Source: Antedon mediterranea (lineage: Eukaryota; Echinodermata; Crinoidea; Comatulida; Antedonidae). From it: a stretch of 64,000 nt of DNA. Made by a program: the position numbers and the translations under genes. Positions 3,422-64,000 of this stretch are shown here, piece by piece. Below the pieces are notes generated by a model that saw only the letters and a program-made list of their open reading frames with translations, searched no databases and had not been told where the DNA came from. The stretch's first letter is position 1. The number at the start of each line of letters is the position of its first letter. The stretch is from positions 3,444,312 through 3,508,311 of the forward strand of contig NC_092675.1 in assembly GCF_964355755.1 (NCBI RefSeq), given 5' to 3'.

Positions 3422-9821
<6,400 letters not shown>

Positions 9822-44900: not shown

Positions 44901-47429
44901 TTTGTGTACTCAATGAATCAAATAACAGTCTCTGCATACTTTGCAGTCATTGTGATCCTCCAGGTAGGACAAAAATGACAACCTCCAGTAATATAAACTA
45001 GCCTAGACAGACACTACCAACAGACATAAAGACATCAGAGTCAACACCTTCAAAATACGACCAAAAACCCACTTGTAAACAAAATCATTTCCTGTTTAAA
45101 GATGTATTGTCCCTTAAAAACATGAAAAATGAAGAATAATTAAATCAGACTTTGAATATATTTTGTAGTTTTAATAACGTTATTCACTTAATAAAAAAAA
45201 ACAGAAAAAAATAATGTTTCACTTATAAAAGAACAAAATAAATGGTTAAATTCAACCAAAAACACATTAGCTGGCAGCCAATTTGACCATTTTTTGCTAT
45301 AAACTACATTTTTTCAGGTAAATACATTTTCTTTCGATCCAATTTTTAGTCAAAGTGGATAACTATTATGTTACATTAAAATGACATACTCAACAAAAAA
45401 ATGTGTTAATAATTATTTTTTCATCTTTAACTTTGTCAAGCGCCTTTGAAGATTATTGTTATGAATACCGGCGCTATATAAGCCTGATTGAATGATTGAT
45501 TGATTGACATAATTCACGGAGCAAACTCAGAGTTTCAAGTGTTCGATAAGGTTTGCTAGTGTAGACTGGGCTTAGATGTCTTATTTTCCCCCTTTTTTTG
45601 CAGTGCTGACGTGGACGGAACACCAGGCAATGGAGTATCTTCAACGTACGCTATCGTTAGAAGTGATGGACTAGTTTACTGGCCTGCTCCTGCTATTTTT
45701 AAAAGTTCATGTAAAATGGACATCACATACTTTCCATTTGACCATCAGTATTGTACTTTAAAGTTTGGACCATGGGTATACTTGGCCAATGCTGTTAGAA
45801 TGAAAAAAATCAGCGGTATGTAAAAACCCAGTTAATAATGTTATTGTTATTATTCAAATTACATCAGTAATTGGTTATTCTTGACTTACAATTTCTCAAT
45901 TACCGGGAACCATTAGACAAGACCACAATGCAAAACAGGTTTTCTTTTACCTGATTGTGTAATCATGTATAAAGATGTTAAATATATCAATAAACCTGTT
46001 TTTTTATTATTATAAAATGCTATTCACATGAATGACTGCTTGCGCATTTTCTGCGTGTCCCCCAGAAAAGGAAACATTAATACACATGCGCATAAATCAG
46101 CAGATTCGATTCATGGATAAATTCCACTGAAAAAAACTTTACATGAACAATCACTAAAGGATGATCACATACACAAGAGCGGTCGTCAGCACAAATATAA
46201 TGTACTACTATATAATATCTTTTTTATTTCTTTTTTAAAAGATGGTGACCATGAACACGCTTCTCCTAATGGCCAATGGACATTACTGGACATGCATAGT
46301 GAAGAGCATCTGGTGAAGTATGGATGCTGTCCTGAACCGTTCTCTGACATCACGTTCTACCTACACTTACGACGAAAGTCATTGTTCTACATGCTAAATC
46401 TCCTATATCCCACCATTTTCGTGGGATGGATGTCACTCATTGTGTTCTTTTTACCACCGCAGTCTGGTGAAAAGGTTGGCCTCAACATCACCATTATGCT
46501 ATCGCTTGTGTTCTTTCTGCTCCTTGGGGCGACGTTTCTTCCACCGACGTCACTCTCTGTTTCATTTCTAGGTAAATATATTGTTTCTTGTGTAAATGGC
46601 CGTAGTGCTTTTGATATTTACTACACTATGACATTAACCTATGCAAATCCGAGCATGTCCAGTAATTTGTTGTCCAAATGTCTTTATATAATAAACACTT
46701 TATTAAAGAAATAAGTTAGATTTAATGAAGATAAGGACAATAACAGCGGATACACAGTCTTGCGTTGTAACAAAGTATGATATATAGGCCTATTAATCTC
46801 ATTATTATTGTATAAAAATAATGCAAATGTTACCACCATTTACAGTTCATATATTATTTTTATTAGGTAAACTCTTCGCGTGCTTTATCATCGTAATGTC
46901 ACTAGAAACCGCGATGTCTGTTATCATAATCCGTCTGTCTCTGCATGCTCCAAACAAGTTACCTCCAGCCTGGTCACGCTACCTTATTCTGGACAAACTA
47001 GCGAAGGTAATGTGCCTTAATAACTACCGCCACGAATACAACCCTAACGATACCATTGAAAACATCAACGAACAGTCTGACGAACATGATGAGTTAGACA
47101 CGGTTACCGATGACGACATGATCTATGAAGTCATTGGTAACTCTCTTCTCAATCATCTTGATATGGAACCGGCCAATCAGAATAATGTACCGAATGATGT
47201 AATCGATGAGGAAAATGACGTTCACGTTGGAGCAAACATTTTGCGTATTGGTCGATACCTGAAGCTGATTGGTAGAAAGTTGAAGACACGTGACAAGTTA
47301 TCGGCTGTTCAGCGGATTTGGGTTGATATGTGTATTATAATCGATCGGCTGTTGTTAGTATGTTTTGTTCCAGGTTTAAATGTCTCAGCAATAATAATTC
47401 TTTACAAATTAATGACTGATTCCTTGTAA
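41964..47429 (+). CDS. Nicotinic acetylcholine receptor-like subunit A, alpha-type, 489 aa
   Basis: Pentameric ligand-gated cation channel subunit. Coding exons: 41964-42009, 42438-42601, 44036-44080, 44711-44820, 45604-45815, 46242-46571, 46867-47429 (1470 nt, all in frame). Leader [15 protein letters not shown], then the N-terminal helix/beta region. WSLEQ and [20 protein letters not shown] precede the Cys loop [15 protein letters not shown] (13 residues between cysteines). Vicinal Cys in YGCCPEPF marks an alpha-type subunit. M1 has LLYPTIF. M2 is [20 protein letters not shown], with E at -1' (cation selective), but 2' is Gly, 4' Asn and 20' Thr instead of the usual Glu. M4 ends [20 protein letters not shown]. 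The Cys-loop-to-C-loop region ([13 protein letters not shown]) lacks the usual DIS..I.NGEW form. One extra intron splits the exon that is single in B and C. The stop codon coincides with an F1 insertion site. Confidence 0.92.
42240..42318. mobile_element. F1-related fragment (receptor A intron 1)
   Basis: GGGCATTTGCTTACGTTGCG, TAGATTGCGTTACG and TTAGTGAGAACCAATCTT match, inverted, the unusual left part of the F1 variant at 47430-47638. Confidence 0.6.
42755..42911. mobile_element. F1 MITE (receptor A intron 2)
   Basis: AGCGTAGTTCCCACTAGAGA at the left and TCTCTAGTGGGAACCAA at the right, with TTGACCAATGACAAG inside. About 157 bp. The LINE relic starts within a few bases of its right end. Confidence 0.82.
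42916..43437 (+). pseudogene. LINE reverse-transcriptase C-terminal fragment, frameshifted (receptor A intron 2)
   Basis: One frame reads [20 protein letters not shown], then [33 protein letters not shown] and FHNYRTR. The frame shifts after about 43318 and resumes as [17 protein letters not shown] ... [12 protein letters not shown] and a stop at 43435-43437. The [14 protein letters not shown] and G..LWN.LP blocks are those of the C-terminal region of Jockey/CR1-like LINEs. AT-rich 3' UTR with TTTA repeats follows to about 43640. Confidence 0.8.
44588..44690. repeat. 22-bp tandem repeat (receptor A intron 3)
   Basis: Five imperfect units of CTTGAACATTGGCTATATAC type; the first two have CCCTGAACATTGGCTATA. 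It lies just 20 bp upstream of exon 4. Confidence 0.85.
45106..45430. mobile_element. F3 MITE (receptor A intron 4)
   Basis: Starts TTTAAAGATGTATTGTCCC and ends TTTTTTCATCTTTAA, with GGCAGCCAATTTGACCATTT inside. Collinear with the copies at 54162-54490 and (inverted) 55038-55376. Confidence 0.85.
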
Positions 47430-47822
47430 AGCTTGGTTCTCACTAGCGACGCAACGTAACGCAATCTACGCAACGTAAGAAAATGCCCCACCAATCATTG
47501 TGTTTGCCCCCCCGCCTGCGTGAAATCAAACCTATGATATTTGCAGCACTATTGCGTCGTCGCTTCCCACTTGTGATTACGCAGTACAGCACTTTGCGTC
47601 AATACGTCGCTGCGTTGCGTTCTAGTGGGAACCACGCTATAAGCTTGGTTCCCACTCTAGAACGTAACGCAAGGACGCCAACGCAACGCAAGCGTTTTAA
47701 CCAATGACAAGCGAAGTTATAGACAGTTAGCAATCACAAGCGAATAAGCCATCGCTTGTGATTGGTCAATTCATTTGCGTTGCGTTACGTCCTTGCGTTG
47801 CGTCTCTAGTGGGAACCACGCT
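47430..47822. mobile_element. Two tandem F1 MITEs starting at the receptor A stop codon
   Basis: The first element (47430-47638) begins AGCTTGGTTCTCACTAGCG on the base after the TAA stop codon. The second (47642-47822) begins AGCTTGGTTCCCACT and ends AGTGGGAACCACGCT. ATA separates them. The pair is flanked by TAA at 47427-47429 (the stop codon) and TAA at 47823-47825. The first has a distinct interior (GCCCCACCAATCATTGTG), so it is a subfamily variant. Confidence 0.87.
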
Positions 47823-47825
47823 TAA

Positions 47826-48664
47826 TGCTCAGATCTTTATACAAGCGCCCAAATTAAACCTTATTATTTCAGGACTACGAAATAAATGTGTGTTGTGTTT
47901 AGCCAGTTGAAACAAGTCATAGAACATTGTCAGCTTAGGGCAACATTTCAATGTGAACGTTTAAACTGGGAAATATAGTGTAGGAACTGTATAGTAGCAT
48001 TTAGTTTAGAATTATGATTAATTTTATTAATGATATTAATATATGCTTGTTTTTGTTTTGGCAATAAAAATGTTTAAAATATGGTTATGCGAATTTCCCT
48101 TCTTTGTACTATTTTGTGTGTGTTTTGTTTATGCTTAAATGTTTGACTTGTGTAATCTTCAGAATAGGGCTAAATAAATAATGAAAACTTTTTTAATAAA
48201 ATAACTATAGGCCTACATTTAATAACTTCACATTATAATTATTAATCAATCATAAATTTTTGTGATTTTAATAGCTCTACTACAATACAACATCTTTGTG
48301 GTTATTCTATTCATATTATAGGTGATATTTAATTATCTTCATGTACCCATTCTATCATAATGGTAACACTTGTAATGAAGTATTGATGTAGGCCTAGGCC
48401 TAATGCTTAGAATATCGAAACCAATCCGTCAATTAATATTCAATCATAAAACTTGATTAAAAGTTATTTACATTAGACAACCGACTAAATATTTCAATCA
48501 AAAGTTGATTAACTTCGTCTTCACACTAGATTACAACTCGTTACGAAAATATTAACAAAACCTGAACGTCAGAAATAATTTAAGTACGTACAACATCATT
48601 AATTAACTTATTTTTCATTATTAATCTTAAGTGACCTCATTCGATCAACGAGATGAGGCTATAA
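47826..48664. other. Between receptor genes A and B; no gene seen
   Basis: AATAAA at 48063-48068 could end the receptor A transcript. The rest is AT-rich and non-coding. Confidence 0.45.
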
Positions 48665-48796
48665 AGCCTGGTTCCCAATCACACGCGACTGTTGACCAAT
48701 CACACGCGACTGTTCGAATAATCCATTGCTTGTGATTGGTCAAATCACTATGCGTTGCGTTACGTCCTTGCGTTGCGTCCTAGTGGGAACCAAGCT
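48665..48796. mobile_element. F1 MITE, internally deleted
   Basis: AGCCTGGTTCCCAATCACAC at the left joins early to GACCAATCACACGCGACTG. The right end CTAGTGGGAACCAAGCT is intact. Flanks TAA and TCA. Confidence 0.8.
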
Positions 48797-48905
48797 TCAG
48801 TGCTATTATATCAAGAATACAAAATGGAAATGTAATTTCATATAAAAATATCCCTGAATTGTGTTGGCCTGTGGATGTTTGATAATGCACCACATCTTCC
48901 TAATG

Positions 48906-49064
48906 ATTGGTTCCCACTAGACGCAAAAACACAAGCACGTAGACGCAAAGCAAGCGAGTTGACCAATGATAAGCGACAGTTTAAATAATCTAACGTTTGT
49001 GATTGGTCAAATCATTTACGTTGCGAGTACGTCCATGTGCTGCGTCTCTAGTTTGGAAACCAAA
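48906..49064. mobile_element. F1 MITE immediately 3' of receptor B
   Basis: ATTGGTTCCCACTAGACGC ... GCGTCTCTAGTTTGGAAACC, with GTTGACCAATGATAAGC and GTGATTGGTCAAATCA inside. It ends about 25 bp from the receptor B stop codon (49089-49091, minus strand). Confidence 0.82.
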
Positions 49065-49088
49065 TTCTAAAAAGTACACTTCACTGTT

Positions 49089-52000
49089 CTACAGAGAGTC
49101 CGTATATGGCTTATTTTGCAATAAAATGCCAGTGGTACAAGAAATCGCACATATTAAAAATATCCAAAGAAATAATCTATCAACAACCATTGCTAAGATC
49201 TTCCATTCCGCCAATACATCCTCTTCTTTATCTTTGTGATCATTAATGTCTCTTATATGTTTTAATTCGTGAACAATGCTTTCCAGAGAACTTTCAAATC
49301 CTTTGCAAGGAAGTGAAGTCTGATTATTATCGATTTTCATGGTATGTTCGGTCATTTCTTGTTGGGTTTGCTTGTTTATAAAGTTATTTTCAACAACTAT
49401 ACTTTCTACGCTGGGCCCGTCAGTTTCTGAGACTAACTTGAAGTCCTTTTTTAAACAAAGTAAACGTCCCAATCGACCTATTATCCAGACTCGCATCCAG
49501 CGAGGTACCGGGCGAGTACCTGGCAACCGGAAGTGTATATGTAAAACGTACACTGTCATGACTGTTGACATGGACACCAGAATAATACAAGCGGCAAAGT
49601 ACTGACCTAAAGTAATATTTCAAAGAAAAACAGAATTTTAATCTTATTGTTGAAAGTGATTAGTATAATAATATGTTAAACTCTTTTCATTATATTTTAT
49701 GTATTTTTTTTATGTAGGCCTATAATTTGCATATTTAAATTTTTTTAATAGTGTCTTAGTTGATAGGAGCTGGTTCGAGTTCATGCTGCGACAGGAGTGC
49801 GACAGGAGTAAGACGTGTTTGTGTGAAGCTCCTGGATTACACTGCTGTATATGCTAATTTTCAGTGAATAAGTGAAGCAGAAACAAAAGACTTTCCTCTA
49901 CATCCCTTATATTTGTAATTATCTATAATTATCATAAGAAAGTTTGAAAAAAACAATAATGGCAGTATTCAGAAGTAAAGACAATTACCTATAAGTGGAA
50001 CAGTTTCAGATGTTGGCGGCATCGTCTCAGCTACCAAGAGCAGGAATACAGTTAAAGCCAGAAGAATAGTGATAGCCAGTGTAACTTTTTCACCCGCATC
50101 AGCAGGCAAATAGAAGTCAAGTAACGTCAGAAGGCTTATAAGCATGCACGGAATCAACAAGTTGAACATGTAGAACAATGGCCTACGTCTGATGATGATC
50201 GTAAACTCTAGTGTTGGAAAAGGTTCCGGACAACAATTGTAATAAGCAACGTTTCTTCGTACAGGCATGCCTATAAGATCCCATTCACCGTTATCAATAT
50301 ATGACGAGATGTCCCCGCTGTCTGTTCGGTTGATTATATCTAGTTGAAGCCCATGATACGCCCATGATCCGAATTTTAAATGACATCTTTGCTCATCAAA
50401 TGGAAAATATGACACGTCAATTTTACAAGTGCTCTTGTAGATTGCAGGAGTATTCCAAGCTACAACACCGTTTGAGAATACAGAAACACTTGTTTCCATC
50501 ATACCATTAAAATCTGAGTCAACGCTGTAAAGAAAATGGAATGATGGGCGTAAACAAGATTTCATTGCTTCAGACAGGGATTAATGAATAAATCCATGAG
50601 AAAGTGGATAAAATGAGACAACGAAAGATTAAAAATGGAAAGAAATGCAATGTTGTCAAGCTCTGAGTATGATGTGATATAGTTTTTGACAATGGGAATA
50701 ATGATGTAAGTAGGCCTAAAGTGTATTTGGAGTCAATTGAAACGACTGAGTCTGTACATCAAAGACTGATGGCTAGGCTACAGTAGTATAAAATGAATAA
50801 TAATAGTTGTGTTTTAACTGCCATTGTTGACATAAACCATTGTCTGTACATTAACCAAAACATTACAATTGAACTCTGACCTGACATTGACCTAATCGAT
50901 AATATTGTGCCGATCGATTCACAGTAGATTGTTCAAAGTAGTAGATAAATCACTAAAGAATATTGTAATTGAAGGACAGTTTTTTAAGATTATAGGCCTA
51001 CATATTATGACCAGGCATTATAACCAAAATGTAGCAATGTTGTAAAGGACTAATTGGTTTCAATACAGGAGGAAATGTGAAAGCTACAAAGTTAATTAAT
51101 CAACAAAAATAACACTTTAACTTTTGATCGTCTGAAATGAATTATAAAAATTGTGAGGTCAACCACGACGGAAATACTAATAAGATCATCCATGGATTAA
51201 TCAATATTAATATTCATTAATCCATGATCAGATTAAAGCCTAGTCTGCACTAGCAAACTTTACCAAATTTGTGTTTGTAAATTCTGAGTTTGCTCGAGTT
51301 TGGAACTACAGTTTGCTAGCGCAGTATACATTTGAAAACTTTTCTGGAGTCTATCAACTGGAAAACGTTTATTGAGATAAATGAACAGTTTGCTCAAGTT
51401 TGCAAACAACATCTTCCAAACTGGGATTAAGAATAATGACAATATTGTGGTGGTTATAAGTAATTACTTTGTGTATAAAAGAATGTCTGGCCTCCAAACT
51501 GTATCCGGGGGCAAGATCAACACGTCACTACCACCATACTCGGATTCATTCCAGTAGAAGTTAACGTCTGTCCATTGCTGTTGGGATAAGACATTGAAAT
51601 TATGTTTGTTACTGGTGGAAACATTCTGAAAGTGGGTCCCCAACGTCTTAAAGGGGAGCTCCGGGTATAAATTTTAAATAAATTCTGTCTATACACTATC
51701 AACTAGTTCGACAAAAAAGTGTGATGTGCGCAAATATGGTAGTGATATGCCCATGTTTAGTAGGAATATTACATCATTGTGTCCATACATGGGCATATCA
51801 CATTCTTTTTGTCACATTAAGTTTGATAGTGTAGACCGAGCTTATAAAAATAAACCATTGAAACAACATTCATTTATGACCTCAGTGTTACGTAAAGCAG
51901 TATGGTGAAATAAGCCCGGATATTCAATCACTTACAAACACTACTATTCATAATATATAGTTCTTTCCTCTAGAAAATTGATTGTTCTTTCGATTTTTCG

Positions 52001-55000
52001 AAGAAAACTGCCTTACTATGATGTATTTGTAGATGTAATTAGTTAGTTTTGTGGGCGGATGAACGTTTTTTGTAACACTACAACTACGAGAACAGTAAAT
52101 GCAAACAATCAAGATAACTTACCATCCGAATCCAAACATTTAATGAAATTACTTGGTTCCTTTCATCCTATAAAAGATGAAAATGTAGTTACAAGATTAC
52201 ATTGTCTCAAGGAAATAAGTAGATCATATAATGTGTACTAGTTGGGGCTCCAGACCGAGTTTTGTCTTAATATTGGTAAAAAGATAAATATTTTTGCACA
52301 TATGGCATTTCATACGTGTATTACTTGAGTTTGGATACAGACAAAAATCAAAACGACGACGTGTGGAATAACATGAAAAAAAATAAATAAATAATGAGTT
52401 GGAGCAAGTCTAAGTGTGTACATACACTCACGTGACATACACCCAAATAAATAATTATTTCATGAATGTGATAGACAAAAATTAATTTATCGAATACATC
52501 TGAGTCGAATTCTGAAAATATGCTCGTCTCTTTATCTGGAGTTGCTTATCTGAAATTATTCGGTGGCTTTTCTGGTATTATAAAAATGTATGCATTTTCA
52601 AAATGTAAGGCGTGTGTGTCGTTTTGATCAAACTATGGACATGATTTGATTGTTTGTCGATGATAAATCTTACCATGTCGATGATTTGCTGTAGAGCCGT
52701 CCCTAATATCACGGTGACCGTATCTGTAGGGTGATCTACAGGGCGTATTATTGAGCTGTAGTTTGTCATCATATCTTGTAGTAACTGTACCTCTTCCTTT
52801 GATCCTAAACACACTGAACAGAATGAAGTTTTGATAAATCTAAAATATTGGTACTAGTTAGCTATGATGCCGTTTTGTGGTCCTTGGTAAAAAAATATTA
52901 GGTATAAAATGTGGCCCAACATAATAAAGAAATTTATTAAAAAAAATTTAGTAATGCCATAAATAATACTGGATTAATGTAATTGTAAATAAAATATTAT
53001 TATTTCAAGACAGAAAGTATTGATAAGGATATTATTAATCTGATTTATTAATCAAAATATGTACGTAGGCTTAACTAAACATATGCCTTCCTATTTCACT
53101 CTTCTTATAAAATGCTGACTAAAAAACTACAGAATACAGACAGAATACTATTTCAAAGATACTTCAATTGTTTAGAGACAGAATATTGTAACATTCACCG
53201 CTCAACCCAACTCCCCCACCCCTCCTCCCCCTAATTTTGGAAGTCACGTGTCTCGTTTTCGTTCACTCATTTATTCTGAGTTACAGCAAATTTTGCATAA
53301 GCTGCCCCTGCTCAACAGTTTTCAATTTTATTTTGTATATTATATGTTGGCATGGTGTCGATGTTATAGCTGCTGGTCGAATAAATAAACGAGACGAAAC
53401 GAGTATTGCGTTACTGCCATGGCAATTAAATACAAACAGTAAACTACCGCGATTTTTAGTCTACACGTTAACTAGTTTGCCGTATCAAAATTTCATTTAA
53501 GAGTAAACGTCTCTAAAAACGAGAAGAAACGAGTATTGCGTTACTGCCATGGCAATGAAATACAAACAGTAAACTACCGCGATTTTTTGTCCACACGTTA
53601 AGTAGTTTGCCGTATCAAAATTTCATTTAAGAGTAAACGTCTCTAAAAACGAGAAGAAACGAGTATTGCGTTACTGCCATGGCAATGAAATACAAACAGT
53701 AAACTACCACGATTTTTTGTCTATACGTTAACTAGTTTGCCGTATCCGAATTTCATTTAAGAGTCAACGTCTCTAAAAACGAGAAGAAACGAGTATTGCG
53801 TTACTGCCATGGCAATTAGATACAAATACAGTAGGCCTAAACCACCGTAATTTCTTGTCTACACGTTAATCAGTGTGCCGTATCCGATTTCATGAGAGTC
53901 AACGTCTCTGAATTGCTGTAGTATACAATCAGGGGTTCAAAAATCATCAACATATTCAGAGCAATTAAAATTATATCAATCACCTCGGCTTACTGATTGT
54001 TCCCTTTGTAACTCTCTTTGTATGTATGATTATGCTACCGCTTAAATAATCGAAGTTATATTAAAGAGTAGTCATAGGGATACAAACAACAATTCGGTTT
54101 ATACCATTCTTCAAATTGATTTGACAAAGTGACCTCTGAAACAGGTAGGCCTATAACATATTTAAAAATGTATTGTCCCCCAAAAAATGAAAAATGAAGA
54201 TTAATTAAATCAGACTTTGAATATCTTGTTTTGTAGTTTTAATAAAGTTAATCATTTCCATAGAAAAAAAAACAAAAAAAATAATGTTTCACTTGTAAAA
54301 TGACAACATAAATGGGTAAATTCAACCAAAAATCCATTGGCTGGCAGCCAATTTGACAATTTTTTGCTTTAAATGACATTTTTTTAGATCCAATTTTTGG
54401 TTAAAGTGGATAACGTTAAGTTACATTAAAATGGAATATTAAACAAAAATTTGTAAGAATTATTTTTTCAGGGGTCAATACATCTTTAATGTTTAAATTA
54501 GGGTACATGAACGTCAATATGAAAGAAATTGCAGAATAGATTTCCCAGGAGGATAGCCCCAAAACAGTAGTAGCTTAATTCCATTTGGGTCCTTTATAAT
54601 CTAAAATAAATTAAAAAAATAAGAAGTACTGTATTTTAAATAAATATTTTATTAGAAAATATTCTATTTGAAACATTTAGAAATCACATTTCTTAAATAT
54701 CGAGATCTCGTTTGACCATTAGAATCGAATTACTTTTTTTCATACTTTCTTCTGTCAATATTAATTAGGAAATAATCAATCTAACGCAAACAAAACGTAT
54801 GGAATGGGAAAGAATAACAAACGAATGAGTTAGTTCTAAAGATCACTATAGAACGGATATTATCTATCGATTTAATTAAAGAAAAACATTTCCATCACAA
54901 ATAATTGTGTTAAAATTAGGCATTATGGTATTTATCCAGAGTTCAATCAATGGAAGATCAGATGTTAAAAACGTTGCCTAGGCTCCTCTGTGTACATCAA

Positions 55001-56686
55001 AACAAACGTGGAAAGAAGACGTATCTGGTGATGGTATTTTTAAAGATGAAAAAATAATTTAATTCTTAACAAAATGTTTGTAGAAAATAGGCCTATGCCA
55101 TTTTAATGTAACATAATAGTTATCCACTTTGACCAAAAATTGAATCCCAAAAAAAAATATTTACCTGAAAAAACTGTAATTTGAAGCAAAAAATTGTCAA
55201 ATTGGCTGCCAGCCAATGAGTTTTTGTTTAAATGTCATTTTATAAGTTAAACATTATTTTTTTCGTTTTTTTTTCTACGGAAGTGATTAACTTTATTAAA
55301 ACTACAAAATAACATATTCAAAGTCTGATTTAATTAATCTTAATTTTTCATGTTTTTGGGGGACAATACATCTTTAAGCATTACGGTATTTCAGAGTTGA
55401 ATCAGATCAGATGTTAAAAACGTTGCCTAGGCTCCTCATGTACACGTCACCAAAACAAAAGTGGAAAGAAGATGTATCTGGTGATGGTGTTTTTAATGAT
55501 TAAATATTGCAGCATTCTACCATGCACGTATCAACAAAATAAACAAGAAACTCAAATGTCGAAACTTTCCGATGACATGTGGGGATTAGAGTGGGGTGGG
55601 TTTTCGAAAGGGGTGTGTTCTGTTAGAGGTGTTTCTCAGAAGGGTGTGTCCTGGGAGGGGTAATTTCTGGGAGGGATGCGTTGTGAGAGATTGTAATGAA
55701 ACTATTTTTTATGTAATCACTCTTATGTATTATTTATTAATATTATTATGGTTATGTTTCGACGCACTTTTTATTGATTTGAGTTCCGTGGATTTAAAAT
55801 AATAATAATGTATAATTAATGTCAAATAAAAACTGAATACGTAACTAGAAAAAAAGATATAAGATCATTGTTATATAATTATATTATTATTGACATTTTT
55901 CACTTTGAAAGTCAATGAGTAAAAGTCCGTGTTAAGAATACTAAGTACATAGTACACATTACTTCCCTAGCCACTACTTGACTGTATTACTTTCTATAAA
56001 CATTTCAATTATTCAAAACATTGTTTCTAAACATCTGCCGTAACCATAGATATGTATGTTAAAAGCGTCTATTATTCTGTTTGTTTACACAAAAGTCTCA
56101 ATTGCTACATATGCTATTCAACAATCTATTTACAGGAAAATTCACACTTCCCCTCTGCTAAATACCAATACAGTAAAATTATCCTAGCAACGTTGATATA
56201 AGTGAATGTTATAGGCTATATTAAATGTCAATACATACGTAGGTCTATCGAAAAGAAATCGGAACATCGCCATTGTTTGGATGTACAGTAATTTCTTTAT
56301 GTTTAACACTTATCGTAAAAAGAGTTTAGCATTATAAGTAGAAGTTGATGATAATTCCGTCATTTCTTTTGTTAGAGAATCTTACACCAATGTCAAAACC
56401 CTCCACCTTCACATAGGCCCAGTAGCTTCGAAGCTTCGGGACCTGGTCTATGCATACTATAATACGGCCTACTCAACTAATAGCGAAATTGTCAAGGAAT
56501 TCCAGTTCTCTTCGTGAACAGTCAGTATTTGTTTTGCAGCAGGTAATTTATACGTTAAAAGAATGCTCAGGCTACTATATAAGAAATCAATGAACAGGCT
56601 CAGACAACAGTTTTCTTACCTTTGATAGGATACTCCAGAAGAATTAACAGGGCTGGGTAGCATATCCAATTTCGAAATCCCGCCAT
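49089..56686 (-). CDS. Nicotinic acetylcholine receptor-like subunit B, alpha-type, 468 aa
   Basis: Coding exons on the minus strand, in order: 56686-56620, 52804-52674, 52167-52123, 51577-51468, 50524-49989, 49606-49089 (1407 nt, in frame). The 45-nt exon 3 reads DERNQVISLNVWIRM. The leader is MAGFRNWICYPALLILLEYP. Features: LGTALQQIIDM, QWTDVNFYWNESEYGG, Cys loop CKIDVSYFPFDEQRC, FGSWAYHG, DISSYIDNGEWDLIG, vicinal Cys in YYNCCPEPF, and M1 FYMFNLLIPCMLISLL. M2 is GEKVTLAITILLALTVFLLL followed by VAETMPPTSE, with the canonical -1' and 20' Glu. M4 is near ILAMVVDRLFLWIFLICAIS. The pore is fully conventional. Exon lengths 45, 110 and 536 are identical to those of gene C. The 3.8-kb first intron holds a 4 x 130-bp repeat and two F3 elements. 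Confidence 0.93.
51236..51425. mobile_element. Fold-back element with GTTTGCTAG/CTAGCAAAC motifs
   Basis: AAGCCTAGTCTGCACTAGCA, with TTTGCTCGAGTTTG, GTTTGCTAGCGCAGTATAC and GTTTGCTCAAGTTTGC inside. A related end (GTTTGCTAGTGTAGACTGGG) occurs at 45551-45571. Boundaries are approximate. Confidence 0.5.
51685..51843. mobile_element. F2 MITE, complete (receptor B intron 3)
   Basis: TTCTGTCTATACACTATCAA ... TTTGATAGTGTAGACCGAGC, with two repeat units and the TGTCCATACATGGGCATATC core. Confidence 0.82.
53389..53911. repeat. 130-bp tandem repeat, four copies (receptor B intron 1)
   Basis: Units begin ACGAGA(C/A)GAAACGAGTATTG at 53389, 53519, 53649 and 53779, an exact 130-bp spacing. Each contains GCGTTACTGCCATGGCAAT and GTAGTTTGCCGTATC-type blocks. 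The fourth copy is the most diverged. An array this regular is recent. Confidence 0.93.
54162..54490. mobile_element. F3 MITE (receptor B intron 1)
   Basis: TTTAAAAATGTATTGTCCCC at the left and GGGGTCAATACATCTTTAA at the right. The interior is collinear with 45106-45430. Confidence 0.87.
55038..55376. mobile_element. F3 MITE, inverted (receptor B intron 1)
   Basis: TTTTAAAGATGAAAAAATAA at the left and TTTTTGGGGGACAATACATC at the right. Reverse complement of the neighbouring copy at 54162-54490, forming a large inverted repeat with about 550 bp between. Confidence 0.87.
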
Positions 56687-57736
56687 ACCGTCGATATAAA
56701 AAATAAAAATGATGTTTTATACAGTATTCCAGTTATTGGAACTTTTCGAATTATATGGAATAATTATTATGCAATGGCTGGAAGACTAAGTCCACTTAAG
56801 CACCTGTGACGTAAACTAATGTTGGCCAATAGTACAATAGTGAAGAGTATAATAAGTATTGTTAGTGACTTAATCGATCTTAATTATAGAAGTCACCGTT
56901 CTAATGAATATTCATGAATGAATACCATGTTACCAATATAACGGGAGTAGGGACGCACCCATACTCAAATAAATTAATGAAGGACACGCTAATATTTTTA
57001 ATTTAACTTTTTAATTTTCTAAAATGTTCCATTAGAGTAAATATAAATGTCTATATTATGAACATTTTGAGACCAAATATAAGTTTCTATCATTATTGGT
57101 TGCCGAGATATATGAGAATGTGTTGCTATTGGCGGCCATTTTGAAAAATTTCTGCCAAAACATTTCCCCTAGGAGTTGAGTTGGAACTAATTGATATATG
57201 TTAGTATACATTTTTCTGAACACTAGATTTGTGAAAATGTTTCTAACAAGCTTCAATAAATGTTGAAGTCTGATTATAAGCCTGTTCTACGACAAGTCAC
57301 TGTTCACACTGTGCTTTCGTTAGTACGATGAGTGTAATGCTAAGATGATTGAAATTGAAAACAATCCTCATCCCTTATTGTGTTATCAATACTAAAATAG
57401 TCCTCATGCAATACCTCTAAACTAAACTAAGATTTAACCTTTAATAAAGTAATAAACTTTTTTCAATCAGATCCTTTTCCAGGCTACTTAAAATTTCTTA
57501 AAATATTTATTAAATTCTTTCTACATTTACATCATCTAAATGAAATACCTAATATTTTGTTTGTTTCTGTTTTTACCTCTGTATATATTGTTGACTTGTT
57601 TTATGATAAAAAAAAAAAGAAATTTACTTTTGTATTCCCAAAATTGACGATGAATATATCTTCAAGAGACTCGAGCATTTATTTCATCATTATTAGCATT
57701 GTTTCATCAATTATGATTTTTACATTTTTAATACAT
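56687..57736. promoter_or_regulatory. Upstream of receptor B; no gene seen
   Basis: Start of the 3.4-kb divergent spacer between receptor genes B and C; the receptor B promoter should lie here. The DNA is AT-rich with low-complexity open frames only. Confidence 0.4.
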
Positions 57737-59235
57737 CGGCAACCTATCAGTCGCGAAAAAAAATGATGGGTCGTCGCGAAATTGTTTTCGATACTGAAAT
57801 TATACACTGATCTATATGTGAAATGTTCTCAGTTTTGTAGAATCTACTGAATACATTTTACATCTACAGTTTTTTCCTATGTTGACCTGCGGCGAGTCCG
57901 TAGCGTACGCACAATTGGGAATCGACGACGGGGCGATGCACGCTTTTGACGCATAGTCGTTGTTGTTGTTGTTGTTAAGACAAGTGGGGAATCCCCTTTT
58001 AGGACGTGGATTTAATAACCTACCAACTGGTTCTACGACGCTATTTTTCTGTAGTTTGCAAATGTGTAATTTGGACTGAAAAACTGCGAACTTTGATGTA
58101 CCAGCGGGTGGGGTGGGGGGGGGGGGGTGGACATTTACAATGAACATTAATAATAGAAAGAACAATATAAACAGGTCTATCCCAAATTACACTCATATCG
58201 ATGTTGTTCAGGCCTTTATGGTTCGGGAGAACCCCTTGACGTTAGCATTGAAAGCAAATGTGTTTACCGGCGAAAAAAGTAGCTGGCTACGATCGTTTTG
58301 CCAATTGCGAGCGCGCTATTAGAGTGTCGTTTCCGGCCAACTTGAGGTGCCATTTATCATAATTTTTTTTTACGTGCGAGAGTACCATTTCCAGCCAGGG
58401 CTGTCATTAAAAAAATTCGCTTTGCCACAGGCCCCATCATGGGTAATTTGTGCATGTTTGATGTGCTGGCAACAGACTGCGTGTGGCAAAATGACTATGA
58501 GCCTATTAATAGAAATTACTATAACGATAGTGATTATGTATGCATAATGACTATGTATTAATATGACGGTAGAAATCGCAAAGATAGCTTACCTATTTCC
58601 TAAATCTCAATATATTTCAAAATAAAATAAAAACAATATTTATTTCATTTTAAAAATTCGCAGAGTTTCGTACCCAAGCTAGCGCAGCGCTTAGAGTATT
58701 CAACAGAGCATTACCCGTTACGCTACAAAAGTACATGACTGAGAAGCTGACAATAGTTTATATATACGTACTTCATATTACGTAATTCATCGTTACGTCA
58801 TAATTCATGGCCGTCAAAGCTGGTATTAACCTGTTTATATCCAAGATGACCGGTTAGCTCAAACGACTGAGCAGCGTCGTGTTAACAACACGGATGTCAT
58901 GGGTTCGAACCCCATGCTAGTCGTGGTGGTAAAGAGTTAAAGCTTTCGAGCTACTGTATTTTGGGTTCACATAATAATACGTTCCCCGTTCCACCACACA
59001 AGCAAGTCAATGCATCTGGTGATGCCTTGGAAACGACACAATGTTTCCACGACCTTACCAGATGTAGGGAGAAGACAATAATAATTGGTCACTTAAATTT
59101 TGGTTCAGTGGTTTTTTTGTGGATACTATCTCGTATGTTATGCTTAGTGCTCTTAATTTTAAGAACACAAATACATGTCAGCAATGTAGAACATAGGATC
59201 ATAAGGTCGCGGTCAAAAAAGGTTGCGGAACGCTG
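57737..59235. mobile_element. Longer hAT-type element, inverted relative to 40774-41691
   Basis: Ends GGTTGCGGAACGCTG (the inverted CAGCGTTCCGCAACC terminus). The left part (TCGCGAAATTGTTTTCGATA) and the middle (GGCCTTTATGGTTCGGGAGA, CTGGCTACGATCGTTTTGC) match the reverse complement of the short copy. About 600 bp near 58580-59200 are extra, including a tRNA-like sequence. The left boundary is approximate and no matching 8-bp duplication was found. A poly-G run lies at about 58107-58129. Confidence 0.7.
58848..58922 (+). ncRNA. tRNA-like sequence, AAC in the anticodon loop, probably SINE-derived
   Basis: GACCGGTTAGCTC ... GAGC forms a D arm. TCGTG-TTAACAA-CACGG forms an anticodon arm (AAC would read Val codon GTT). 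ATGGG-TTCGAAC-CCCAT is a perfect T arm, and GCTAGTC can pair with the 5' end at six of seven positions. Three extra bases between the D and anticodon arms break the standard layout, so a functional tRNA is unlikely. Confidence 0.45.
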
Positions 59236-59510
59236 ATCATGCATAACTAACATAACTAGGCCTACAGTATTTGGTTTGCAGATCTACAAAGCATAACCAA
59301 CCCATTTACAGTTGTATAGACATGTAGAAACATTGTATTAATACAAAATACATTAATACATGCACACACCCATATTCCTATACAACATACATAAACATCA
59401 GATGTTAGTTTACAATGATTCGTCACACACGTGTAAGCATAACCAAAACCATTTACAGTATAAAATGTAGAAACATCTATGTATTAATATAACATAGCAT
59501 ACGTATCATG

Positions 59511-59528
59511 CACACACACACACACACA
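59511..59528. repeat. (CA)n microsatellite
   Basis: Nine uninterrupted CA dinucleotides. Confidence 0.9.
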
Positions 59529-59586
59529 TTTACATAAACATCAGATGTTGTATGATTCGTCACACACGTATTCCGAATTGCCTTAA

Positions 59587-59765
59587 AGCGTGGTTCCCAC
59601 TAGCGACGCAACGCAAGGACGTAACGCAACGCAAGTGAACTGACCAATCACAAGCGATGGCTTATTCGCTTGTGATTGCTAACTGTCTATAACTTCGCTT
59701 GTCATTGGTTAAAACGCTTGCGTTGCGTTTACGTCCTTGCGTTACGTTCTAGTGGGAACCAAGCT
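59587..59765. mobile_element. F1 MITE, complete, 0.3 kb upstream of receptor C
   Basis: AGCGTGGTTCCCACTAGCG ... CTAGTGGGAACCAAGCT, 179 bp, flanked by TAA on the left and TTA on the right. Nearly identical in the body to the copies at 12174 and 63593. Confidence 0.88.
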
Positions 59766-60081
59766 TTATTGACAATAATACACACTATCTAAATAATATT
59801 AGTACACTAATATGATTTATAATACAAAGCAATCATCTTGGACCTTCACTAACTAAAGAAGTCACTAATTCGTCGCTAAGTCGATTATTATTATTAAGTA
59901 AAACCACGCGACAGTCTTGATTGAAAATTATCTGTGATGGGCTTTAGATTTAATTAAATGAATACACACTTCAATACACTGTTAGTTGTTAGCACAATTT
60001 GGACTTTGAAAATTTGAAATAGATGACCTGCCGTTTCACACTTGTAAAATACCAAGTTGAGTTGGAGGATCGCAACCAAAT

Positions 60082-63000
60082 ATGAAGGTATCCAGTATGT
60101 TTGTATTCTTGACTTTTATGACATTCGCTAAAGGTATGTTCACATTTTTTCAATTTAATTGTCGTTTACACACAAATATTAGGACTAATAGATTCTTAAC
60201 CATAAGTCTTGAAATTAAATCAGAGAGAAGGACGAGATGCTATACTAATGGCAACGTAATATCTATTCATGGAAAGACATATTATATATGACAAATAAAT
60301 AATTGTGAATAAAATATGACTGTTTGTGAGTATATAGTATGTTGGGTTATGTCAAATAAATAAATTAATCAATCGCAATAAATGTACAATGAGTCGCTTT
60401 TCAAATGTTTCAAATAATATATAATATATAAAAAGACATTTTTTAAATTGAAATTGAGCGTCATCGGCGTCACGACCACGCGTACGCGATTCATCCAATC
60501 AGACATAATACAATCCAACAAATCTATAATTCAATTCTATGTATATGAACTAAGTATCATTAAATCATTATAGAAGTGATATCGACCAGCAGAATGTTAG
60601 ATTTGATTACTGATCTTACGTCATCATACGAAATGTCTGTTAGGCCGTCTCTAACACCAACCACGACCATTGACGTACGTTACGGAATCGCACTCCAACA
60701 AATCATTGACATGGTAAAGTCTAATTACAGATTATTACAGATATTTAGCCTATCTCTGGATTTTGGGTTATTTTATATTTTGTTTTTTTAAGCTCTGTCT
60801 ACACTATCAAACTAGTTTGACAAAAAAGTGTGATGTGCCCAAATATGGTAGTGATATGCCCAAATATGGTAGTGATATGCCCAAATATGGTAGTGATATG
60901 CCCAAATATGGTAGTGATATGCCCAAATATGGTAGTGATATGACATCATCATGTCCATATATGGGCACATAACAATAATGTATACCTCCCTGGTTTGATA
61001 GTGTACTGTAGACAGATCTTTAAATCAAAACCAAAAAATGCGAAATGTCCACTCTATCTATGGCATATATTTAGTAAATGGAATCTAAACAATATTAAAG
61101 AAAACATAGATTAAACATACACAGCATTGATCATCCTCTTATGTACGGTGTTTAAATAGAAGCCTAGAAATTATTGACGATCGACGGGTCGTTTTAAAGC
61201 TTGTGATAATATGTTATTATAATTGAAACGATGTTCTAGACTTACAGTTAGGCCTATTAAGCCTATTTTGTAATTTTTTTAATTTAAACCACATTTTATA
61301 TGTTCTAATTTAATTATATAGGATGAGCGTAACCAAATTCTAACTACAAATGTATGGCTACGTCAGGTAAGCTAACAAATTTTGAAGTGACTACTAATTT
61401 TATTTATGGTGTATTGTTGGTTCTTTGTTTGTTACAGCAATAAAAGAGTATATTGCTAAAGCGTGGTTCCCACTAGAGACGCAACACAAGGACGTACACG
61501 CAACGTAAGTTAGTTGACCAATCGTAGGTGATTGATTATTCGAACTGTCGCTTGTCATTGGTCAACACGCTGGCGTTGCGTTTACGTCCTTGAGTTACGT
61601 CTTAGTAACCAAGCTTAATAAACATTAACCAATGTTTATAACGAAAACGTGGCGGCTGTAGGCCTACCTCTTTCTATCATGGTCCGTTAAGAGTGGGGGA
61701 TGTGGGGTTTAACCACCCACGCCTGTAGGCTCATAATTCATCAACGTATCTATCTTTCTATAATTGAAACAGTATTGGGAAGACGTTCATTTACAATGGG
61801 ATCCTGATGACTATGATGGTATTAGTACTGTAAATCTACCGGCCTCTAGCGTGTGGAAACCAGATGTCATTCTATACAATACGTAAGTTGTTAATTTATT
61901 GACAATGCTTGCATATATATATTAAAACACTAATACAAAACGCATTACTGTAATGTAGGAAGATAATTATTTGAAAGGAAATTGGAAACATAAAATAATC
62001 AGCATGCCAACTGCAAATCGAAATAATATGGAGGGGAGGGGGGATAAGGCAAATGAGATCCATTATCTTCAAGAATAAAATTGACGTGTGTTTATATCTC
62101 TAGTGCCGATGACGCAATGAAAGGCATCACAGAGACCGACGTAGAAATCCAATACAATGGCAACGTGTCTTGGTACGCTCCAGCAGTTTTCAAAAGTTCC
62201 TGCAAAATAAACATCCTCTACTTCCCAGTGGATGAGCAACATTGTCTGATGCAATTCGGATCCTGGTCGTATGCCAAATCATCTATGAGGCTCACCAACA
62301 GCTCTTCTGCCGGCGACATCAGCAGTTTCATTGACAACGGTGAATGGGAGCTCCGAGGCATGCCAGTGCAGCTTATTGAAAAGAAGTATACGTGTTGCGA
62401 TGACCTCTTTCCAGTCTTAGAGTTTACAGTAATAATCGGCAGGCGCTCTTTCTTTTATATATTTAATTTGATTCTTCCGTGCATTGTCGTTACAGCGATG
62501 ACAATTCTGACGTTTTATTTGCCTGCACATGCGTACGAGAAGTTGACTCTTTGTATTACGATTCTCTTGTCTTTGGCTGTGTTTCTGTTGATGGTTGCTG
62601 AAACAATGCCACCAACTTCAGAAGTTGTACCAATTCTAAGTAAGTTTCTTCCTGCAAGATGTTCTTCTATTAACTATTTTTAATCTACACAGATCAACTA
62701 CAGATATCGTTTGTGTCCTTTGCTTACTTAAACTTAAAACCATTAGTCGGTTAATATAACCAAACCGATATTACATACTGCTCATTCTTTAACGGAACTT
62801 TTAGAGTTACAATTGTTGAAGAGAAATTCTAAATCAATCTGAGCAGTGTTTCTAAAAGACTTTCTTTTTTTTAAACGACGTCAGTCATGTAGTTACATGT
62901 ACTGTAATCCTAACATAACATATTTGTCTTTTTCAATAGGCCAGTATTTCCTAGTGACCATGATCATAGTCTTTCTATCAATTCTGGTGTCTGTGATAGT

Positions 63001-63463
63001 TCTCTGTATACACCATTGTGGTACTCACAGAGGACGTGTCCCAGAGTGGCTGCGCAGACTGGCATTCGAAAAGTTAGAGCCTATTCTATGCCTCACCCGC
63101 TGTTCCAAAGGAGAAAGCCTTGATACGAATAACCAAACACCGTTTAGAAATTACCTAGGCGACAGGCATAACGGAGGTACACATTCGATGAAGTTGTATG
63201 AACGGAAACTTACCAATCAGACAACTTCGAGAAAATACAAACTATACGGCCTACTTGAGACGGTCGGTGACTTGACAAAGAATATCGTCGATGCGTATGA
63301 CAAACAGGATGTTGAAAGACAGATTGAATCTGAATGGATACGTGTTGGTTATGTGCTTGACAGAATTGCTCTGTGGGCTTTCAGTTTGATTACAATAATA
63401 TATTCCTGTCTTTTCTTTGGTAAAATGTATGTTATGTCTTACAGTTCAGGAAATAATGAATAG
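60082..63463 (+). CDS. Nicotinic acetylcholine receptor-like subunit C, alpha-type, 468 aa
   Basis: Coding exons 60082-60133, 60574-60713, 61322-61366, 61773-61882, 62104-62639, 62940-63463 (1407 nt, in frame). The leader is MKVSSMFVFLTFMTFAK. Conserved blocks: YGIALQQIIDM, DERNQILTTNVWLRQ, YWEDVHLQWDPDDYDG, Cys loop CKINILYFPVDEQHC, FGSWSYAKSS, DISSFIDNGEWELRGMPVQL, and vicinal Cys in KKYTCCDDLF. M1 is FFYIFNLILPCIVVTAM. M2 is AYEKLTLCITILLSLAVFLL followed by MVAETMPPTSE. The -1' and 20' Glu are kept, but the usual Gly before the -1' Glu is Tyr and position 4' is Cys. M3 and M4 (VGYVLDRIALWAFSLITIIY) are complete. An alternative first Met for the last exon at 62846 is intronic. The gene shares exon sizes 45, 110 and 536 with B. 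Introns hold F2 and F1 elements. Confidence 0.93.
60791..61022. mobile_element. F2 MITE with five internal 21-bp repeats (receptor C intron 2)
   Basis: AAGCTCTGTCTACACTATCA at the left and TTTGATAGTGTACTGTAGAC at the right. Five consecutive, essentially identical units containing CCAAATATGGTAGTGATATG fill 60838-60942, the highest count among the F2 copies here. The array is a multiple of three and leaves an open frame reading YGSDMPK repeatedly, which is not a gene. Confidence 0.92.
61460..61615. mobile_element. F1 MITE with TAA target duplication (receptor C intron 3)
   Basis: AGCGTGGTTCCCACTAGAGA ... CTTAGTAACCAAGCT, flanked by TAA at 61457-61459 and TAA at 61616-61618. Confidence 0.87.
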
Positions 63464-63479
63464 AACTATTACAAACTAA

Positions 63480-63819
63480 AGCTTGGTTCCCACTAGGACG
63501 CAACGCAAGGATGTAAACGCAACGCAAACGCGTTGACCAATGACAAGCGACATTTCGAATAACCTATCACTTGTGATTGGTCAACTCACTTAAGCGTGGC
63601 TCCCACTAGCGACGCAACACAAGGACGTAACGCAACGCAAGTGAATTGACCAATCACAAGCGATGGCTTATTCGCTTGTGATTGCTAACTGTCTATAACT
63701 TCGCTTGTCATTGGTTAAAACGCTTGCGTTGCGTTTACGTCCTTGCGTTACGTTCTAGTGGGAACCAAGCTTTACGTTGCGTCCACGTCCTTGCGTTGCG
63801 TCCTAGTGGGAACCAAGCT
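63480..63819. mobile_element. F1 MITE nested inside another F1 MITE, 3' of receptor C
   Basis: The outer element starts AGCTTGGTTCCCACTAGGA at 63480, 16 bp after the receptor C stop codon, and ends CCTAGTGGGAACCAAGCT at 63819. A complete second element (63593-63771, AGCGTGGCTCCCACTAG ... CTAGTGGGAACCAAGCT) interrupts it and is flanked by TTA at 63590-63592 and TTA at 63772-63774. This defines the insertion precisely. Confidence 0.92.
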
Positions 63820-64000
63820 TCACAGAATGTTCTCATAGTCTGAGCGAGGTTTCTTTCCGTGTTTTGTGTAAATGGTCATCATTTTCCCGCTTTCCGTTAC
63901 GTGCCGCTAGTTTGTGTAAATTGGTCCATGTAAATTTTCAAATTCAATCTAGTAACTTTTTAAATAATGAGCATATTGTAACAATTGTTGCAAAAATAGA
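63820..64000. other. Window end; nothing recognised
   Basis: No coding or repeat signature seen beyond the F1 element. Confidence 0.5.

Follow-up and report, generated by a model that had tools for sequence, protein, structure and literature searches.

Receptor genes and F1 copies at the locus

The window, meaning the whole stretch of 64,000 nucleotides that was analysed, corresponds to C6:3444312-3508311 in a genome of 354 Mb represented by 11 large contigs. Genes A, B and C in this window are Cys-loop receptors, or pentameric ligand-gated ion channels, as the domains Neur_chan_LBD (PF02931) and Neur_chan_memb (PF02932) were matched by domain search in exons of each of them. The last exon of gene A (46866..47429, plus strand; M3-loop-M4) is an open reading frame with the C-terminal end ...TDSL followed by TAA, and resembles 5-HT3A in sequence. 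PF02932 (Neur_chan_memb) was matched in it with E=4e-6, slightly below the curated cut-off for this exon alone, and the upstream exons of the gene score higher for PF02931/PF02932. The last exon of gene B (49089..49613, minus strand) is an open reading frame with the C-terminal end ...YTDSL followed by TAG (PF02932, E=2e-22), and that of gene C (62939..63463, plus strand) is an open reading frame with the stop TAG at 63461-63463 (PF02932, E=3e-19). The identity of the receptors' last exons is 17-33%. The TDSL terminus is common to A (47415-47429) and B (49089-49103), whose last exons are 27% identical, and is encoded by ACT GAT TCC TTG in A and ACG GAC TCT CTG in B; it is possibly a conserved C-terminal signal, for example a PDZ-type ligand. 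Genes A (plus strand) and B (minus strand) are convergent and are separated by a common spacer of 1.66 kb, in which four F1 copies make up approximately 40% of the length.

The positions of F1 relative to the stop codons were read directly off the sequence and checked with a profile scan. According to the preliminary description, all three receptor genes end in F1 elements placed 0 to about 25 bp past the stop codon, and the distances were found to be +0 for A, 22 nt for B and 16 nt for C. The stop codon of gene A (TAA, 47427-47429, plus strand) is abutted directly by copy A1 (47430..47638), which starts with AGCTTGG and belongs to a separate subfamily of about 215 bp. Copy A2 (47642..47822), of the subfamily of about 180 bp, stands at the right flank of A1, so that the tandem pair claimed for gene A is indeed seen from 47430 to 47822. 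The pair is ended by a second TAA (47823-47825), and TAA on both sides is as expected of a target-site duplication. Beyond the stop codon of gene B (TAG, 49089-49091, minus strand) lie the older copy B1 (48904..49066) at 22 nt and, roughly 104 bp further 3' of the gene, a second, internally shortened copy B2 (~48664..48800), values close to the +25 and 110 bp given earlier. The nested arrangement described at +16 of gene C was likewise recovered: an outer F1 begins 16 nt past the stop codon with its left part (63480..63592), is interrupted by a complete, young inner copy (about 63589..63774) inserted at a TTA within it, and continues with its right part (63772..63826). Two further copies are associated with gene C, one of the type of about 180 bp located approximately 300 bp before the start of the gene (59582..59772) and one of the type of about 155 bp located in an intron (61455..61622).

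The three stops represent fewer than three separate neighbourhoods, since those of A and B face one common spacer. F1 is also unevenly distributed along the window: the first 47 kb has 6 pieces (1.5% of bases; 0.13 per kb), the last 17 kb has 9 (8.5% of bases; about 0.5 per kb). The contrast that had been drawn with the dehydrogenase, lectin, CSK, TRMO and CREB3L genes, described as having no F1 there, is accordingly weak, given how few pieces the first 47 kb contains.

Other repeats were observed as well. The extensive 5' intron region of gene B contains an inverted-repeat element of about 1.2 kb (54162-55377), whose long arms are complementary at 92% over 129 bp and at 89% over 66 bp. At 53390-53900, in an intron of the same gene, a unit of about 120 bp (ACGAGAAGAAACGAGTATTGCGTTACTGCCATGGCAAT...) is directly repeated about four times, apparently as a minisatellite. 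Related elements around GTGATATGCCCAAATATGGTA are present at 60820-61020 and 51690-51840, and the gene C copy carries about five tandem 20-bp repeats of this sequence.

Identity of the F1 family

The exact F1 end TWAAGCKTGGTTCCCACTAG occurs at 6,508 sites genome-wide with balanced strands, and the reversed control occurs at none. Exact ends are kept by some copies only (8 for about 14 copies in the window and 5 for 26 pieces at the receptor-paralog loci), so the family probably numbers, by extrapolation from the exact ends, roughly ten thousand copies or more. Matches are dispersed over C1-C11. F1 copies are mostly 150-215 bp long, with inverted-repeat arms that are 72-89% complementary within copies and with conserved ends GGTTCCCACTAG and CTAGTGGGAACC, and they fall into subfamilies of about 180 bp (59582, 47642 and the inner copy at gene C), about 155 bp (61455) and about 215 bp (47430). 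Of the 57 complete copies, 39 have TTA or TAA next to each of their ends. A strict 3-bp TWA duplication of the PIF/Harbinger kind would require the same triplet on either side, which only 22 of these 39 show, a proportion close to independence; a TA duplication fits more copies. Tandem F1 pairs are present elsewhere in the genome as well.

On these sequence characters, F1 is a MITE, namely a non-autonomous, near-palindromic DNA transposon in which no coding capacity was seen. It is like the MITEs with TA or TWA targets (Stowaway/Tc1-mariner-like and Tourist/PIF-Harbinger-like) in its short length, terminal inverted repeats and near-palindromic structure, and like Stowaway- and Tourist-like MITEs in its thousands of copies, several subfamilies, TTA/TAA flanks, and nested and tandem insertions. 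Its target duplication may be either 2-bp TA or 3-bp TWA. The end sequence GGTTCCCACTAG had no match in the text of the papers searched.

Origin of the F1 copies past the three stops

Two origins had been put forward for the arrangement, namely duplication of an ancestral receptor gene already carrying F1 in its 3' UTR, and repeated targeting of these 3' ends by F1. That gene and element were duplicated together would agree with A, B and C all being receptor paralogs with F1 near the stop, and with the TDSL terminus common to A and B. The age of the genes is at odds with it: last exons that are only 17-33% identical mean that the genes were duplicated long before F1 inserted here, whereas the F1 copies come from different subfamilies and match copies elsewhere at up to 99% identity. 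It had been proposed to ask whether the F1 elements next to the three receptor genes resemble one another more than they resemble random genomic F1, and they do not, their nearest relatives being found elsewhere. Those of A1 are 89-94% identical and lie on other chromosomes, relatives being present on all chromosomes, while its identity to all other F1 copies of the window is only 58-68%. B1 is 80-86% identical to its nearest relatives, on other chromosomes, against 73-79% to the window copies except A1, and the inner copy at gene C has its nearest relatives, at 97-99%, on other chromosomes too. A2 and the inner copy at gene C, 97% identical, are members of the same young subfamily, of which dozens more copies are present on every chromosome, many at 98-99%. 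A maximum-likelihood tree was constructed from 83 F1 copies, with A1 omitted as too divergent, and the copies of the window did not group in it (10 changes for 10 rows, with a mean of 9.6 for shuffled labels). Moreover, about 22 other receptor paralogs are without F1 at the stop. Exon divergence, the F1 relatives elsewhere and the tree thus rule out joint duplication of gene and F1, for which the chance that is left is vanishingly small.

As to targeting, F1 transposition might prefer sequence or chromatin right past stop codons or transcription ends, and this could be argued from the favoured T(T/A)A site, which includes the TAA stop, and from three neighbouring genes carrying F1. About 82 control stops were taken for comparison, that is, 60 unrelated stops (from cytochrome P450, sulfotransferase and fibrinogen-domain genes, several of them tandem relatives) and about 22 other receptor terminal exons of the genome. 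F1 was found within 25 bp past the stop at none of the 60 unrelated stops, a sample that an enrichment of a few percent would escape, and within about 150 bp at only two of them, as partial F1 at 63-66 bp; none of the roughly 22 receptor terminal exons had F1 within 200 bp of the stop. Few open reading frames end beside F1 at F1-centred loci, several of these look internal, and no convincing terminal coding exon ending at F1 was found there. Accordingly, with 0/60 unrelated and 0/~22 receptor stops, there is no sign of a general F1 preference for gene 3' ends or of receptors being special. The earlier suggestion of repeated targeting stands as far as independent insertion is concerned and fails as regards a 3'-end preference (0/~82 control stops within 25 bp), to which we would concede a slight chance at most.

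Some individual loci may be recorded here. The two closest control F1 copies, at 63-66 bp, belong to sulfotransferase-like genes (loci L104 and L107). A 244-aa open reading frame at locus L026, the longest of those at the F1-centred loci and ending 5 bp before F1, was considered as a stop-F1 junction and rejected, since the splice donor GTAAGT precedes the stop; to judge from this motif, the exon most likely ends at the donor and not at a stop. In the receptor paralog at locus L033 (2094-3493; C5:1.888 Mb), the intron beside the M1-M3 exon is rich in F1, holding four pieces or more, which shows that F1 clusters in receptor genes away from the 3' end.

The density of F1 is 0.33 pieces per kb at the receptor-paralog loci and 0.64 near other F1 copies. 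Six local insertions were simulated at random positions in non-coding DNA in 400,000 trials: all three stops were struck in 0/400,000, and two or more in approximately 1-4 per 10,000. Fisher's test against the 82 control stops gave P = 1e-5. Both calculations are post hoc, the genes, the distance and the repeat family having been chosen after the pattern was seen, and both ignore the spacer common to A and B and the clustering of insertions. The point against chance is that all three stops were hit, which would be improbable if insertion were uniform, even with the local density taken into account; a chance reading depends on the pattern having been picked post hoc and on a presumed local hotspot. 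The coincidence is unusual and is not evidence of a mechanism.

The F1 elements past the three stops are therefore best regarded, with a probability of about 0.85, as independent insertions of a common MITE in an F1-rich local stretch, with no inherited or targeted feature. F1 uses T(T/A)A sites for insertion, and these often lie within or beside earlier F1 copies; the copies at A, B and C, which differ in subfamily and age, would be separate insertions within a local F1 hotspot. Coding exons are presumably intolerant of insertions, and exon ends would then bound the stretches where F1 copies survive. The TAA stop of gene A is a suitable target in its own right, duplicated on insertion so as to leave the protein unchanged; with a TAA at either end of the F1 pair, the stop is preserved. 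The tandem and nested arrays reflect insertion of F1 into F1. If transcribed, F1 would open each 3' UTR with a long hairpin, and the copies would most likely be tolerated, neutral passengers.

Predicted hairpins and significance for the receptor genes

Strong hairpins had been expected at the start of each 3' UTR, and as predicted folds they are borne out, with -178 kcal/mol (z = -14) for A, -65 kcal/mol (z = -6) for B and -208 kcal/mol (z = -20) for C. Between stop and F1, no canonical poly(A) signal was found in A, B or C, and hence the F1 copies probably sit in the 3' UTRs of the three genes. The first AATAAA/ATTAAA past the stop occurs at +424 in A, +759 in B and +602 in C, in all cases beyond the F1 copies.

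An effect of F1 on the receptor mRNAs is possible by analogy, because in rice the presence of a MITE in the 3' UTR can lead to repressed translation by way of the plant Dicer-like protein OsDCL3a (PMC5338036). The Stowaway-like MITE of rice Ghd2 (PMC5338036) is alike in being a MITE hairpin within the 3' UTR of a gene; its effect was measured and is OsDCL3a-dependent, whereas F1 belongs to an animal genome and its transcription and effect are presumptive. The F1 hairpins might be kept by selection to regulate the receptor mRNAs, acting on their translation or stability, on dsRNA processing, or through sense-antisense pairing between the convergent A and B mRNAs. The very stable predicted folds, the first poly(A) signals past the F1 copies in all three genes and the rice precedent speak for such a role. 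Any F1 copy, however, folds strongly as a matter of course, those at A, B and C vary in subfamily and age with B1 decayed, other receptors are without F1 at the stop, and the precedent depends on a plant Dicer-like protein, which leaves selected hairpins with a very slight chance. Slighter still is the chance that the hairpins were recruited or kept as common 3'-UTR control elements of the receptor cluster, for example for joint RNA-binding or dsRNA action. Were the hairpins to regulate the receptors, a single transposon family would have been recruited in parallel by genes lying close together.

Independent insertion, as preferred here, is a caution that an arrangement may stand out within one window and yet reflect neither inheritance nor targeting. 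For the family itself, it indicates that a palindromic MITE using T(T/A)A can occupy a TAA stop exactly with the protein unaltered, and that tandem and nested MITE insertions can occupy much of a convergent intergenic spacer.
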